Below, in pieces: positions 471-54,421 of a stretch of 64,000 nt of DNA (the first letter of the stretch is position 1; each line of letters opens with the position of its first letter). The notes under the pieces were generated by a model. The model was given only the letters and a program-made list of their open reading frames with translations, ran no database searches and was not told where the DNA came from. Origin of the DNA: Rhodopseudomonas rhenobacensis. GTDB lineage: Bacteria; Pseudomonadota; Alphaproteobacteria; Rhizobiales; Xanthobacteraceae. Location: NCBI RefSeq assembly GCF_014203125.1, contig NZ_JACHIH010000009.1, forward strand, positions 62,001-126,000, given 5' to 3'. Both the position numbers and the translations under genes were made by a program.

Positions 471-1429
471 GACGGCAGAGGCTTCGGTCTGACCTGAGAG
501 CGGCAGCCATTGGGGTTGTCGTGCTGTTGCGTGAGCGGCTGCAGCGCGGCCGCCGCGCCAGGCTGGCGCGCCGTCAGGAGCGGACCAAGAGCCCGCATCG
601 CTTCATCGCCTTTCTGGAAACCTACGCGCCGCCGCGGATCGGCGTGCTGTTCACCGCGCTGGTGCTGCTCGGCAGCGTCGCGCTCGGCATCGTCAAGGGC
701 GGCCACCTCGAAGAGGTGACCACGGCGTTCAGCGACGCCCGCAACGCGGTCGCCAACGTCGCCGGGTTCCGCATCACCAATGTGGCGGTTTCCGGCCGCA
801 AGCAGCTCACCCACGACGAGGTGCTGGCGATCGGCGGCGTCACCGGCCGCTCCTCCTTGTTGTTTCTCGATGCGGCGACCGTCCGCGACAAATTGAAGGC
901 CAATCCGTGGATCGCCGACGCTACCGTGCTGAAACTCTATCCGGGCCAGCTCACCATCGACATCACCGAGCGCTCGGCCTTCGCGCGCTGGCAGTTGCAG
1001 GGGCGGCTCGCGGTGATCGCCGATGACGGCGCCGTGCTGGAGCCCTATGTGGCGCGCCGCTTCGCCTCATTGCCGCTCGTGGTCGGCAAGGGCGCCGAGA
1101 GCCACGCCAAGGATTTCATCGCGCTGCTGCAGCGCTACCCGCAGGTCAATTCCGTGGTGATGGCCGCGGTGTTTGTCGGCGAGCGGCGCTGGAACCTGCG
1201 GCTCACCAACGGCCTCGACATCCGGCTGCCGGAAAACGAGGTCGGCAATGCGCTGGCGACGCTGAGCAAGCTCGACGTCGAGGGCCGGCTGTTGTCGCGC
1301 GACATCGTCGCCGTCGACATGCGGCTGCCGGACCGGCTGACGGTGCGGCTGTCCGAGGACGCCGCCAAGGCGCGCGAAGAGCTCTTCAATAAAGACAAGA
1401 AGACCAAAAAGAAGGCCGGCGACGCATGA
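437..1429 (+). CDS. ftsQ: Cell division protein FtsQ
   Basis: 330 residues; a bitopic inner-membrane protein of the divisome linking the cytosolic ring to periplasmic wall synthesis. A basic cytoplasmic tail (about residues 1-67) precedes one membrane segment near 68-87. The POTRA domain spans about 111-180 (FRITNVAVSG, then NPWIADATVLKLYPGQL), followed by the FtsQ beta domain. The C-terminus is Lys-rich. The start ATG at 437 lies 34 bases inside ddl; no closer start fits the frame before the membrane segment. The stop overlaps the ftsA start (ATGA at 1426-1429). Cluster position and topology make the call firm. Confidence 0.93.
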   Translation: MDGGGRLARSVRRQRLRSDLRAAAIGVVVLLRERLQRGRRARLARRQERTKSPHRFIAFLETYAPPRIGVLFTALVLLGSVALGIVKGGHLEEVTTAFSDARNAVANVAGFRITNVAVSGRKQLTHDEVLAIGGVTGRSSLLFLDAATVRDKLKANPWIADATVLKLYPGQLTIDITERSAFARWQLQGRLAVIADDGAVLEPYVARRFASLPLVVGKGAESHAKDFIALLQRYPQVNSVVMAAVFVGERRWNLRLTNGLDIRLPENEVGNALATLSKLDVEGRLLSRDIVAVDMRLPDRLTVRLSEDAAKAREELFNKDKKTKKKAGDA

Positions 1430-37169: not shown

Positions 37170-37556
37170 GCCTTACCGTACCCCGCCCGTGGCCGCAGGT
37201 CAGCAGGGCTGAGTCTGCAAAAGGCCGATTCGCGCCGGCCGCGGCAAAAAGGCAGTGGAGGCTTCTGTTGCCAGGCGCCTCCGAACCCCGCCCGACGGAG
37301 CTTAACCCGCCAGGGCTTCAGCGTGGTCTTTCAAACGGCGTTACGCCGCCTGAGCAACCGGAGCATAGTTGTCGTTGGCAACTATTGCATGGCCCGATCA
37401 CGGCGGAACCATACCGGACAAAAGCTCGCCCTTTACGCCCTCGTCGATCCTGGATCGCCCCCGCCGAAGCCCGCCGGACTTGCGGGCTTGGGTGGAGGCG
37501 CCGGGTACTGCCCCCGGGTCCGAATGGTTTATTGCGACGGCACTTTATTGTCATAG
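37170..37556 (-). ncRNA. ssrA: tmRNA, circularly permuted (two-piece type)
   Basis: The tag frame at 37379-37341 encodes ANDNYAPVAQAA and a TAA stop, the alphaproteobacterial tag type. The tRNA-like part is permuted: the 3' acceptor arm CGCCTCC (complement of 37494-37500) comes first, with GGACCCGGGGGCAGTACCC forming the T arm. A 33-base loop region follows, and then the 5' arm GGGGGCG (complement of 37456-37462). Pairing the arms gives a G-U at the third pair, the alanine identity mark of tmRNA. The encoded end reads ACCC rather than ACCA, so the CCA needs processing. Outer bounds are estimates. Confidence 0.88.
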
Positions 37557-37741
37557 CCGGCGAACCGGCCTGCGAAATATAGGCGCGAATTGGCGCAACG
37601 GAAGGCCGCGGGCAGGGCGGCGGCGAGCGCGCCGGCGCGGTTTCACTGGCATCATGGGGGGAATTTCGTTAGGCAGAATGCCGGGTGGGACGAAAGATCC
37701 AGTCAGAACAGATGGGCCGCCAAGGCCGCGGGGAAAAAGCC

Positions 37742-49830: not shown

Positions 49831-50779
49831 GGCCGAGGCTATTCCGGAACGGGGCAGGGCCGTGCTTATCGCAGGGCCGACCGCCAGCGGCAAGTCGGCG
49901 CTGGCGCTGCGGATCGCCGAATCGCACCGCGGCGTGGTGATCAACACCGATTCCATGCAGGTCTACCGCGACCTGCGGGTACTGACGGCGCGGCCGACGC
50001 CCTCCGACGAGGCGCGGGCGCCGCATCGGCTGTACGGCACGGTGGACGCCGCGCAAAATTTCTCCGCCGGGGCCTGGGTGGAGGCCGCGGCGGCCGCGCT
50101 GGCCGAGGCGCGCGCGGGGGGGCTTCTGCCGATCTTCGTCGGCGGCTCCGGGCTGTATTTCAAGGCGCTGACTCGGGGACTGTCGGCGGTGCCGGCAATT
50201 GCGCCGCAGGTCCGTGACGACGTCCGCGCCCGGCTGGAGCAGGGCGGCGTCACAGCGCTACACGCCGAATTGGCCGCGCGCGATCCCGTTACGGCGGCGC
50301 GGCTCAATCCGAACGACCGCAGCCGCATCGCCCGCGCGCTGGAAGTGGTCGAGGCCACCGGGCGATCGCTCTCCGACTGGCACCGCGACGCGCTGCCGCC
50401 GCTGCTGCCGCCGGATCAAGTCACAGCGCTGTTTCTGGCGCCGGAGCGCGACGAGCTTTACGCGCGGATCGACGCCCGCTTCGAGGTGATGCTGGCGGCC
50501 GGCGCGCTCGACGAGGTCGCCGCGTTGGCCGCGCGACAACTCGACCCGCTGCTGCCGGCGATGAAGGCGCATGGCGTGCCGGCGCTGATCCGGCATCTTG
50601 CCGGCGAACTCTCGCGCGACGAGGCGGCGGCGATCGGCTGCGCCGATACGCGGCATTACGCCAAGCGGCAGTTCACCTGGTTCCGCCACCAATTGCCGGA
50701 GTTTGAATGGGTGAGGCCGGAGGCAGCGGCGGCGTTGCTGATCGACCAGCTCGCCGCCGCTTCGCGCTTGCATGGCTGA
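49829..50779 (+). CDS. miaA: tRNA dimethylallyltransferase
   Basis: 316 residues; adds the isopentenyl group to A37 of tRNAs reading U-starting codons. Walker A GPTASGKS and [12 protein letters not shown] are the family marks, and the ending RRQ-type tract appears as [13 protein letters not shown]. Start ATG 49829 shares two bases with the serB start on the other strand. ATG 49808 ([11 protein letters not shown]) is an alternative that would overlap serB by 23 bases. Length fits the family (about 300-320). Confidence 0.92.
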
Positions 50780-50849
50780 ACGCCGCTTTCCGGCTCGCGG
50801 AACGGCCGAAACACGGCTATAGTTTAACAACGCCTCATGCGAACTGACC

Positions 50850-50877
50850 TTGACATTAGAGGTTCGCTCGTTATGTT
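50850..50877 (+). promoter_or_regulatory. Promoter of the ilvIH operon
   Basis: TTGACA 50850-50855, a 16-base spacer and TATGTT 50872-50877. A start near 50884 would place the leader peptide start at 50909 in the transcript, with a proper ribosome site. Confidence 0.55.
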
Positions 50878-50908
50878 TCGCGCAACCTTCGAGAAGCCGG
50901 AGCCACTC

Positions 50909-50971
50909 GTGCGACATTTAATTACCCTCTCGCTTATCGTAGTACCTAGGCGCACCGTCTTGGGTGGCTGA
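50909..50971 (+). CDS. ilv leader peptide
   Basis: 20 residues, starting at GTG 50909 with GGAG 6 bases upstream and ending at TGA 50969. The run LITLSLIVV places Leu, Ile, Val and Thr codons close together, as in leader peptides of branched-chain amino acid operons. The stop lies inside a hairpin region and the intrinsic terminator begins about 28 bases later. In such attenuators, ribosome stalling at these codons when charged tRNA is scarce prevents the terminator. An in-frame ATG at 50873 lies inside the promoter and is not favoured. Confidence 0.75.
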   Translation: MRHLITLSLIVVPRRTVLGG

Positions 50972-50998
50972 AGCCATTCGTGAATAGACGGTGTGCGG

Positions 50999-51029
50999 AA
51001 GGGCCTCTTTTAGGGCCCTTTTTTATTTT
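50999..51029 (+). terminator. ilvIH attenuator terminator
   Basis: AAGGGCC 50999-51005, loop TCTTTTAG, GGCCCTT 51014-51020, then T tracts to 51029. It lies 52 bases before the ilvI start, so it ends transcription unless the leader is stalled. An upstream hairpin pairs CACCGTCT 50953-50960 with AGACGGTG 50986-50993. Confidence 0.85.
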
Positions 51030-51080
51030 CCGAGCGTCCTAGACCAAGCCAGCGCGCCAAGCGCATCCCGGAGCCAGCCA

Positions 51081-52874
51081 ATGACCACCGCAGCCAGCGA
51101 CAGCAAGAGCCACGATGCCAACCAGATGACCGGCGCGGCGATGATCGTCCGCGCGATGATCGATCATGGCGTCGAGCACATTTTCGGCTATCCCGGCGGC
51201 TCGGTGCTTCCGATCTACGATGAGCTGTTCCAGAATTCCGAGAAGCTGCAGCACATCCTGGTGCGCCACGAGCAGGGCGCCGGCCACGCCGCCGAAGGCT
51301 ATGCCCGCTCCACCGGCAAGCCCGGCGTGGTGCTGGTGACGTCGGGCCCCGGCGCCACCAACATGGTGACGCCGCTCGCCGACGCCTTGATGGATTCGAT
51401 CCCGATCGTCTGCATCACCGGCCAGGTGCCGACCCATCTGATCGGCAACGATGCGTTCCAGGAATGCGACACCGTCGGCATCACAAGGCCGTGCACCAAG
51501 CACAACTGGCTGGTCCGCGACATCAAGGATCTGGCGCGCGTGCTGCACGAAGCGTTCTACGTCGCCACCTCCGGCCGGCCCGGCCCGGTCGTGGTCGACG
51601 TGCCGAAGGACGTGCAGTTCGCCACCGGCACTTATCATCCGCCGCGCAAGTCGGATGTGCATGTCTCCTACACGCCGCGGCTGAAGGGCGACGCCGGACA
51701 GATCCGCAAGGCGGTGGCGCTGATGGCCAACGCCAAGAAGCCGGTGATCTATTCCGGCGGCGGCGTGGTCAATTCCGGCCCCGAGGCCTGCAAGCTGTTG
51801 CGCGAATTGGTCGAGGTCACCGGCTTTCCGATCACCTCGACGCTGATGGGGCTCGGTGCTTACCCTGCGTCCGGCACCAATTGGCTCGGCATGCTGGGCA
51901 TGCACGGCACCTACGAAGCCAACATGACGATGCATGATTGCGACGTCATGCTGTGCATCGGCGCGCGGTTCGACGACCGCATCACCGGGCGCACCGACGC
52001 GTTCTCGCCGAACTCCAAGAAGATCCACATCGACATCGATCCGTCGTCGATCAACAAGAACATCCGCGTCGACGTGCCGATCATCGGCGACGTCGGCAAT
52101 GTGCTCGGCGATATGCTGGCGGCGTTCAAGGCCGAGGCCAAGAAGCCCGACATCAAGGCGTGGTGGCAGCAGGTGGCGACCTGGCGCGGCCGCAATTCGC
52201 TGGCCTACAAGAAGAACAACGACGTCATCCTGCCGCAATACGCCATCGAGCGGCTGTACGCGGCGACGCGGGGCCGCGACACCTACATCACCACCGAAGT
52301 CGGCCAGCATCAGATGTGGGCGGCGCAGTTCTACGGCTTCGAGGAGCCGAACCGCTGGATGACCTCCGGCGGGCTCGGCACCATGGGCTACGGCCTGCCG
52401 GCGGCGCTCGGCGTCCAGGTGGCGCATCCCGACAGCCTGGTGGTCGACATCGCCGGCGATGCCTCGGTGCAGATGACCATGCAGGAGATGGCGACCGCGG
52501 TGCAGTACGAGCTGCCGATCAAGATCTTCATCTTGAACAATCAGTACATGGGCATGGTGCGGCAATGGCAGCAGCTGTTGCACGGCAACCGGCTGTCGCA
52601 TTCCTACACCGAGGCGATGCCGGACTTCGTCAAGCTCGCCGAGGCCTATGGCGGCGCCGGCTTCCGCGTCACCAAGCCGTCGGATCTCGACGGCGCGATC
52701 CAGGACATGATCAAGGTGAAGAAGCCGGTGCTGTTCGATTGCCGGGTGGCGTCGATGGAGAACTGCTTCCCGATGATCCCGTCCGGCAAGGCGCACAACG
52801 AAATGCTGCTGCCGTCGGAAGCCAACGACGAAGCCACCGCGGCCGCCTTCGCCGGCGGCAAGGCGCTGGTGTGA
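51081..52874 (+). CDS. ilvI: Acetolactate synthase, large subunit
   Basis: 597 residues; joins two pyruvates, or pyruvate and 2-oxobutyrate, in valine, leucine and isoleucine synthesis. The N-terminal Glu that activates thiamine diphosphate lies in VRHEQGAGHAAEGYAR. The ThDP and Mg2+ binding region is VVDIAGDASVQMTMQEM followed by LNNQYMGMVRQWQ. Three domains are in the usual order. ATG 51081 is preceded by GGAG. Its transcription is probably controlled by the leader and terminator just upstream. ilvH follows after a repeat. Confidence 0.95.
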   Translation: MTTAASDSKSHDANQMTGAAMIVRAMIDHGVEHIFGYPGGSVLPIYDELFQNSEKLQHILVRHEQGAGHAAEGYARSTGKPGVVLVTSGPGATNMVTPLADALMDSIPIVCITGQVPTHLIGNDAFQECDTVGITRPCTKHNWLVRDIKDLARVLHEAFYVATSGRPGPVVVDVPKDVQFATGTYHPPRKSDVHVSYTPRLKGDAGQIRKAVALMANAKKPVIYSGGGVVNSGPEACKLLRELVEVTGFPITSTLMGLGAYPASGTNWLGMLGMHGTYEANMTMHDCDVMLCIGARFDDRITGRTDAFSPNSKKIHIDIDPSSINKNIRVDVPIIGDVGNVLGDMLAAFKAEAKKPDIKAWWQQVATWRGRNSLAYKKNNDVILPQYAIERLYAATRGRDTYITTEVGQHQMWAAQFYGFEEPNRWMTSGGLGTMGYGLPAALGVQVAHPDSLVVDIAGDASVQMTMQEMATAVQYELPIKIFILNNQYMGMVRQWQQLLHGNRLSHSYTEAMPDFVKLAEAYGGAGFRVTKPSDLDGAIQDMIKVKKPVLFDCRVASMENCFPMIPSGKAHNEMLLPSEANDEATAAAFAGGKALV

Positions 52875-53102: not shown

Positions 53103-53645
53103 ATGAACCAGCCCGCATCCGCTTACTTCATGGACGAGCGCAAGGACCCGATCGAAACCCACACGCTGTCGGTGCTGGTGCAGAACGAGCCCGGCGTGCT
53201 GGCGCGCGTCATCGGTCTGTTCTCCGGCCGCGGCTACAACATCGAAAGCCTCACGGTGTCGGAGACCGAGGCGCAGAAGCACGTCTCGCGCATCACCATC
53301 GTCACCACCGGCACGCTGGCGGTGATCCAGCAGATCAAGAATCAGCTCGATCGCATGGTGCCGGTGTATCGCGTGGTCGACATGACGCTGTCGGGCCGTT
53401 CGATCGAGCGCGAACTGGCGATGGTCAAGCTGCGCGGCGTCGGCGAACACCGCGTCGAGGCGCTGCGGCTCGCCGAAGCGTTCCGCGCCCGCGTCATCGA
53501 CGCCACCATCGAGAGCTTCGTGTTCGAGATCACCGGCAACTCCGCCAAGATCAACCAGTTCATCGACCTGATGCGGCCGCTCGGGCTGGTCGAAGTCTCC
53601 CGCACCGGCGTCGCCGCGATCGGCCGCGGCCCGGAAGGCATGTGA
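53103..53645 (+). CDS. ilvH: Acetolactate synthase, small (regulatory) subunit
   Basis: 180 residues; binds valine and gives feedback control and full activity to IlvI. An N-terminal ACT domain is seen in HTLSVLVQNEPGVLARVIGLFSGRGYNIESLTV. The second half, AEAFRARVIDATIESFVFEITGN and GLVEVSRTGVAAIGRG, is typical of IlvH. ATG 53103 gives the family start. It completes the enzyme with the gene upstream. Confidence 0.96.
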   Translation: MNQPASAYFMDERKDPIETHTLSVLVQNEPGVLARVIGLFSGRGYNIESLTVSETEAQKHVSRITIVTTGTLAVIQQIKNQLDRMVPVYRVVDMTLSGRSIERELAMVKLRGVGEHRVEALRLAEAFRARVIDATIESFVFEITGNSAKINQFIDLMRPLGLVEVSRTGVAAIGRGPEGM

Positions 53646-53700
53646 ACTGGACTTCTCCCGGGCCGGATATACATTGTGTATCCGATCAGGGAGCGCCGCG

Positions 53701-54060
53701 ATGAAGGTCAAAGTCGCCAAATGGGGCAACAGCCTCGGCATCCGGTTGCCGAGCGCCGCCGCTGACAGCGTCGGCGCCACGGCCGGCAGCGAGCTCGATC
53801 TCACCATCGAGAACGGCGAGCTGCGCCTCAGGTCGATCCGCAAGACATCGGCGCAGCTGCTCGAGGAGATGCTCGACGAGATGGAGCGGCTTGGACCCGA
53901 GCAGCAGTCCGAAACCGTCGATTGGGGGCCCGATCGCGGGTCCGAGATCATCGACGATGACTACTCGCGCGGGATCTTGGTGGAAGGGCCGGACGGCGCG
54001 CCGGTTCGCGCCGATTCCCTGCCAACGAGACATCCGAAGAAGCGCGATGAAACTTCCTGA
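53701..54060 (+). CDS. MazE-type antitoxin
   Basis: 119 residues. The N-terminal swapped-hairpin AbrB/MazE fold reads MKVKVAKWGNSLGIRLPSAAADSVGATAGSELDLTI, with WGNSLGIRLP as the DNA-binding mark. The rest is acidic and flexible (LLEEMLDEMERLGPEQ) and would wrap the toxin. It is longer than E. coli MazE (82). The stop overlaps the toxin start by 14 bases. The pair lies between ilvH and ilvC, so it is an accessory insertion within an amino acid gene cluster. Confidence 0.85.
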   Translation: MKVKVAKWGNSLGIRLPSAAADSVGATAGSELDLTIENGELRLRSIRKTSAQLLEEMLDEMERLGPEQQSETVDWGPDRGSEIIDDDYSRGILVEGPDGAPVRADSLPTRHPKKRDETS

Positions 54061-54421
54061 CGCCGGTGACATTGCGTGGGTCGATTTGGACGACACGCGC
54101 GGAAGCGAGCAGTCGGGGCGTCGGCCGGCGCTTGTTCTGACGTCGCAAGCCTTTCACGAAGTCTCCCGGCGCGCGGTGGTGTGCCCTATCACTTCGAAAA
54201 TTCGCCACTGGCCGACCAACATCACTCTGCCGCAGGGCATGAAGACGAAGGGCATGATCATGGTCGACCAGGTGCGCTCGATCGATCGGGCCGAACGGTT
54301 GTTCGATATCATTGAGCAGGCCCCGGCGCAGATTGTGGACGATGTGCGGGGCAAGCTCGCGGTGCTGCTTGGAATCGACGTTGCGACCCTGGGCGGCGCC
54401 GGCACTGGCGAGACGGTCTGA
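54047..54421 (+). CDS. MazF/PemK-type mRNA interferase toxin
   Basis: 124 residues. The fold opens DAGDIAWVDLDDTRGSEQSGRRPALVLTSQAFH, with the RRPALVLT strand typical of PemK/MazF. VVCPITSKIRHWPTNITLP and KGMIMVDQVRSIDRAERL carry the conserved Thr/Ser and the QVRSID strand. The toxin is an endoribonuclease that cuts free mRNA; the cut sequence is not known. It begins inside the antitoxin gene. The operon appears intact. Confidence 0.88.
   Translation: MKLPDAGDIAWVDLDDTRGSEQSGRRPALVLTSQAFHEVSRRAVVCPITSKIRHWPTNITLPQGMKTKGMIMVDQVRSIDRAERLFDIIEQAPAQIVDDVRGKLAVLLGIDVATLGGAGTGETV

Follow-up and report, generated by a model that had tools for sequence, protein, structure and literature searches.

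The question raised by this locus is which kind of element lies between miaA and ilvI, and what it would do there. In the window, i.e., the whole stretch of 64,000 nucleotides that was analyzed, ilvI (51081-52874, forward strand) starts with an ATG at 51081 and encodes the large subunit of acetolactate synthase, the first enzyme common to the synthesis of valine, leucine and isoleucine, in which Pfam recognizes three TPP-enzyme domains. It is followed on the same strand by ilvH, which encodes the small subunit (53103-53645, with an inferred start, the frame submitted to Pfam being that from 53085). Amino-acid-sensing leader-peptide switches are already known in bacteria, and an earlier note on this DNA had proposed one as the regulator of ilvI. 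Conserved leader codons, a covarying hairpin, a terminator and the position before ilvI support this proposal and, judging from sequence, the element is very probably a ribosome-mediated transcription attenuator of ilvIH. The genome would gain a 20-codon gene that is missing from the annotation, together with a regulatory RNA, both located before its one acetolactate synthase large subunit gene (the sole IlvI match in this genome at E ≤ 1e-150).

Relatives were collected by an IlvI protein search that matched at least 594 stretches, of which the best 80 were used as named loci. The 63 nearest of these loci (L002-L064) constitute the family considered below, which amounts to 64 sequences with the window. 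Their titles are mostly Bradyrhizobium and also include Afipia, Rhodopseudomonas, Tardiphaga, Nitrobacter and unclassified MAGs. All 63 contain a TTGAC-16/17-TAT promoter, a leader of 19-22 amino acids with a Leu-Ile-Val run, a hairpin at the stop codon and a terminator, which is the order of promoter, leader, hairpin and terminator before ilvI that had been described for the window.

The promoter of the earlier note, TTGACA-16-TATGTT, was retrieved by a promoter scan as a sigma-70-type site at 50850-50877 on the forward strand, and it is the one sigma-70-like site between 50400 and 51400, where shuffled sequences give 0.2. It is also conserved: all 64 sequences (63 relatives and the window) have TTGAC-N-TAT within the 90 nt 5' of the leader, with a spacer of 16 in 59 and of 17 in five, while this pattern occurs in only 6 of 5000 stretches of 90 nt drawn at random from the window. 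Just downstream, a conserved element, CGCGCAACCTTCGAGAAG (50879-50896, forward strand), stands at the probable 5' end of the RNA. CGCGCAACCTT is present in 59 of the 64 sequences, 5' of the leader start and at a distance from it which, counted from AACC, is always 25-26 nt. A search of the window's own genome allowing up to two mismatches retrieved no further copy of the 50879-50896 element, which is thus present as a single copy. Part of it would correspond to a GC-rich discriminator and the remainder to the first transcribed bases. Whether this element could pair with the terminator arm was weighed by eye only, and this pairing was set aside.

The leader peptide ORF, identified from the list of open reading frames and from its conservation, extends from 50909 to 50971 on the forward strand (GTG start, 20 codons, TGA stop) and reads VRHLITLSLIVVPRRTVLGG, residue 1 being Met if GTG is the start. 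A GGAG motif is located 5' of it at 50899-50902, so that the GTG-start frame of 20 residues and the GGAG that had been claimed are both present in the window. As family features, they did not hold: of the 64 sequences, two contain GGAG, GAGG or AGGA and six start with GTG. The peptide itself is conserved, the leaders of L002-L064 starting with M(R/S)(N/H), in which V sometimes replaces M, and running via Leu/Ile/Val to about VVPR.TAGGG. The core shared by the 64 leaders is Leu-Leu-Ile-(Ala/Val/Ile)-Val-Val. In the window, codons 4 to 12 are TTA-ATT-ACC-CTC-TCG-CTT-ATC-GTA-GTA, and the core Leu9-Ile10-Val11-Val12 is encoded at 50933-50944. Such a run of codons for the products of the pathway, within a short leader ORF, is what characterizes a branched-chain leader-peptide attenuator. 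Leu, Ile, Val and Thr had been put forward as the stalling residues; the first three form the conserved run, whereas Thr, which precedes the core in 49 of 64 leaders aligned by their C-termini (Ala in six), falls outside the contiguous run.

Codon usage in the leader is also unusual. GTA is the last Val codon in 63 of 64 leaders, but in a set of eight CDS from the window, some of which have approximate starts, it accounts for only three of the 214 codons for Val. In the same eight CDS, with the same approximation, TTA represents 0 and CTT 11 of 232 Leu codons, and the leader of the window uses both. Rare codons at the stalling site would sharpen the response; GTA may instead be kept for RNA pairing.

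The 3' part of the leader ORF is embedded in a long hairpin (50950-50996, forward strand), whose arms span 50950-50968 and 50973-50996 and whose loop contains the stop codon (50969-50971). The fold of 50884-51031 has a z-score of -3.2, with none of 200 shuffles as good. In an alignment of 53 distinct sequences, standard pairs are found in 98.7% of the hairpin cells and two-sided compensatory changes at 8 of the 17 pairs; 40 two-sided cells were observed, compared to a mean of 8.4 after shuffling and to at most nine in slid versions. The strong hairpin noticed in the window is therefore conserved and covarying in the family, and the covariation around the stop codon delineates a conserved RNA structure which a ribosome translating the leader could open. 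This hairpin is the probable ribosome sensor, since a ribosome finishing the peptide must keep open a hairpin that holds the stop codon in its loop.

Directly adjacent to it, an intrinsic terminator is predicted at 50997-51029 on the forward strand (stem 50997-51006/51013-51022, loop 51007-51012, T-rich tail to 51029), in agreement with the terminator and T tract that had been claimed. At the sequence level, its location between the leader ORF and ilvI, 3' of the promoter, is that required in an attenuator. Taken by itself, a terminator-like site is not above chance (one found vs 0.9 expected), and the case thus rests on conservation, which includes the terminator.

Beyond the family, a pattern-free scan, run with no control, retrieved a Leu/Ile/Val-rich candidate before ilvI in 80 of the 80 named loci, the candidates of L065-L081 being mostly of the M...LILVV(G).R type. 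Order-wide, IlvI was matched at E ≤ 1e-150 in 192 of 199 genomes (seven had no match at that threshold), and 80 ilvI upstream regions were sampled from among the matches listed, mostly one per genus. These were searched for an ORF of 11-26 codons with at least four of six residues being Ile, Leu or Val and with a T-tract 15-110 nt past the stop. Such a leader followed by a T-tract was found in 57 of the 80 regions, compared to five of 80 reverse complements and a mean of 1.35 per 80 shuffles; the other 23 regions gave no leader and T-tract candidate. A stricter first scan, which also included the T-tract, retrieved 28 of 80 regions, one of 80 reverse complements and 15 of 1600 shuffles. In the 57 positive regions the T-tract is located 41-56 nt past the stop, and in all 57 the predicted fold encloses the stop codon with 10 pairs or more, followed by a terminator whose energy is -10 kcal/mol or lower. 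As stop-enclosing pairs were also found in 608 of 1140 shuffled pieces, this hairpin count is supportive, with moderate weight, and not decisive. The confidence placed in the attenuator comes from the covariation in the family and from the leader counts, not from the order-wide hairpin count. Collectively, the comparison with relatives, which the earlier note had named as the check on its reading, revealed a conserved peptide, a conserved hairpin, which covaries, and a conserved terminator.

Based on these features, a mechanism can be proposed. Transcription would start just 3' of 50877, and a ribosome would then begin the 20-codon leader. When charged Leu, Ile and Val tRNAs are ample, the ribosome would reach the stop codon and hold the 50950-50996 hairpin open; with the hairpin held open, the terminator at 50997-51029 would fold and RNA polymerase would halt before ilvI. 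When these tRNAs are scarce, the ribosome would stall on CTT-ATC-GTA-GTA, just 5' of the hairpin, which would then fold and be extended by pairing of a short linker with the 5' arm of the terminator, as a putative antiterminator. This extended hairpin would delay the terminator and let the polymerase read into ilvI. The direction of the switch is deduced from the stop codon located in the loop and from the codon run at the 5' foot of the hairpin, where the ribosome would be stalled.

The linker, CCTAG (50945-50949, forward strand), is located at the junction between the last Val codon and the hairpin, and its CCU can pair with AGG (51000-51002) in the terminator 5' arm, making it a candidate antiterminator extension. 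This site contains CCU in the window and CCCA or CCCU in most relatives. When the RNAs were folded in silico without the terminator 3' arm, the linker took at least two bases of the terminator arm in 63 of 64 sequences. Linker/arm pairing was counted by scripts; the MAFFT alignment lost register between the CCCA and CCCU types. Among the 46 CCCAG linkers, the base before GGG is T in 35, A in eight and C in three, while for the nine CCCTG linkers the partner base is A in seven and C in two; the remaining nine sequences have other linkers. In the ilvI tree, the U-A state is found in L061 and L064, both from the Bradyrhizobium group, which appear at separate positions, each surrounded by loci with the A-U state. 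A swap test on 30 distinct linker/arm pairs, in which relatedness was ignored, showed a modest difference, with a mean of -6.52 for cognate vs -6.10 for swapped pairs, 60 of 5000 permutations being as good. From these sequence comparisons, the linker pairing, which covaries partly with the arm, likely functions as an antiterminator in the window's family only.

Folding energies restrict what this pairing could achieve. When the whole RNA 3' of the Val codons is present, the terminator fold is more stable than the extended hairpin in every one of the 64 sequences (by a median of 5.2 kcal/mol, and by 12.3 kcal/mol in the window), so that linker pairing can only delay the terminator and antitermination needs a kinetic argument. 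In the window, the extension consists of three pairs only, behind an internal loop. In addition, stalling on the last Val codon would leave the linker hidden under the ribosome, which counts against the linker model. A classical three-way competition driven by energy alone was also considered and rejected: the window's minimum-energy fold accommodates both the hairpin and the terminator, and masking the leader codon by codon (in nine sequences, then in all 64) gave no clear switch, since 1352 of the 1407 masked states of the 64 sequences kept the terminator in their minimum-energy fold. With the leader unmasked, it is in this fold in 51 of 64 sequences.

In classical attenuators, antiterminator and terminator share an arm. 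A variant, which we consider possible albeit doubtful, is an attenuator in which the sensor hairpin shares no bases with the terminator and the linker pairing of the family is incidental. Termination would then be decided by the folding of a large hairpin that adjoins the terminator, or by where the ribosome stands with respect to the polymerase. Such an arrangement would account for the coexistence of both structures in the window and for the stop-enclosing hairpin in 57 of 57 order-wide regions (608 of 1140 shuffles), and it is consistent with linker-arm pairing being at chance outside the family (19 of 56 sequences vs a swapped mean of 19.25, sd 3.1, with L083, whose contig is as long as that of the named locus L007, left out of the 57; 21 of 57 with a looser definition of the linker). 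This out-of-family test covered linker-to-arm pairing only, and another overlapping antiterminator could be missed by it; the partial covariation between linker and arm in the window's family and the shared arm of classical attenuators also argue against this variant. A composite scenario, in which the stop-codon hairpin controls the adjacent terminator without a shared arm in most of the order, the window's family added the linker later and the terminated RNA may also act in trans, like the trp leader of Sinorhizobium, appears unlikely. These comparisons raise a mechanistic question, namely, how a stop-codon hairpin prevents termination where no competing antiterminator is visible.

Other explanations do without an attenuator, and they have to be weighed against the Rfam matches. 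A search of 50780-51100 up to an E-value of 1 retrieved only RF02502 (Atu_C8, 'Rhizobiales sRNA'), which matches 50917-51034 with 34.7 bits (E about 1e-5), a score below the curated cut-off of 50. This match and the sRNA label of Rfam would fit a separate small RNA gene chancing to sit before ilvI, with the terminator as its own 3' end. Such a gene is very improbable given the distribution of RF02502. Among 12 relatives, the cut-off was exceeded in four, all just before ilvI (none of seven in the window's family and four of five others). In 199 genomes of the order, 31 of which have a score over the cut-off, a threshold of E ≤ 0.001 gave 109 places in 106 genomes and, under stricter filters, missed 93 of 199; in the window's family, three of eight genomes were found and five missed, though 63 named relatives carry the element. 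Of the 91 places in genomes for which the IlvI place was listed, 88 precede the IlvI match by 110-251 nt in the same orientation; the other 18 places precede it likewise, by 125-305 nt, which gives 106 of 109 in total. The three exceptions are found before a second acetolactate synthase type gene (G021) and before MFS transporter genes (G169 and G115), so that one of them again precedes an acetolactate synthase type gene. RF02502 also shares with the ilvI element its place before ilvI and a similar hairpin-terminator layout, and the match spans the Leu/Ile/Val codons; it differs by the score of the window and by its description as an sRNA. The sRNA description of RF02502 notwithstanding, this Rfam family corresponds in practice to the predicted ilvI attenuator of the order, and the terminated leader could act in trans as well. 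Even less credible is a plain terminator that ends transcription from miaA, in which case ilvI would have some unrelated promoter and the reading frame would have arisen by chance. The end of miaA, at 50779 on the strand of ilvI, would fit this explanation, as would the chance expectation of a lone terminator-like site, but all 64 sequences have a promoter-like site just 5' of the leader, and the conserved peptide and covarying hairpin already contradict the explanation in its simple form. Least probable, to the point of being negligible, is a T-box or a metabolite riboswitch. An intrinsic terminator ahead of a biosynthetic gene would suit such an element, but what is conserved is a reading frame, and no T-box or riboswitch family was matched in the above Rfam search.

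The ribosome-mediated attenuator retained here has several counterparts. In 2004, Vitreschak et al. reportedly predicted attenuators for alphaproteobacterial ilvIH, made of a leader peptide with branched-chain codons and a terminator. In comparison with these alphaproteobacterial ilvIH/ilvB attenuators, the plan of leader and terminator is the same; the linker extension and the covariation were worked out here. In two further reports, an 'ilvIH cis regulatory' element is listed for Sinorhizobium meliloti (PMC2573895, citing Vitreschak et al., 2004) and a previously described 'ilvB leader peptide' is mentioned (PMC1273637, citing Vitreschak et al., 2004). For Caulobacter crescentus ilvBN/ilvIH, PMC4117421 (citing Tarleton et al., 1994) describes a terminator ahead of the operon that is under the control of a leader in which Ile and Val codons stand in tandem, and a figure legend in it names a leader CDS. 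The operon and the leader-codon plan are the same as here, a likeness drawn from this description and not from sequence. Another rhizobial leader-peptide attenuator, rnTrpL/peTrpL of the Sinorhizobium meliloti trp genes, releases a short RNA, as stated in PMC7298713 and PMC10117765; it differs from the ilvI element by its Trp codons and by the trans functions reported there for rnTrpL/peTrpL. The ilvI attenuator belongs to a known kind, to which the linker variant and the identification of RF02502 are added here. A literature search found no paper naming Atu_C8 as an ilvI attenuator, the original sRNA report being outside that search.

Extra copies of the attenuator were also observed. Three genomes (G169, G115 and G312) have RF02502-type copies ahead of genes for MFS transporters, the copies being located at 1003-1122 (+) of L163, at 742-862 (+) of L164 and, in L172, on the reverse strand before an ORF at 983-2251. 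This placement suggests that these transporters are connected with branched-chain amino acids. Second copies are found before a second acetolactate synthase type gene in G021, G256 and G330 (L165, L167 and L169, reverse strand); in the second gene of G256, the central TPP-enzyme domain is unmatched. Among 151 genomes of the family to which the second-copy carriers belong, two copies are present in five, three being of the acetolactate synthase type and two of the MFS type.

In the window, the attenuator is adjoined on its upstream side by miaA (49877-50779, same strand), which encodes a tRNA isopentenyl transferase. Attenuation elsewhere is affected by MiaA-modified tRNAs, and a UUA codon is present in the leader of the window. 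Between ilvH and ilvC, the 53698-54418 interval contains genes for a MazE-like antitoxin and a PemK/MazF-like toxin, followed by an EamA transporter gene. Further away, an alphaproteobacterial tmRNA gene is located at 37254-37607 on the reverse strand (RF01849, 281 bits), where the permuted tmRNA family matches too.
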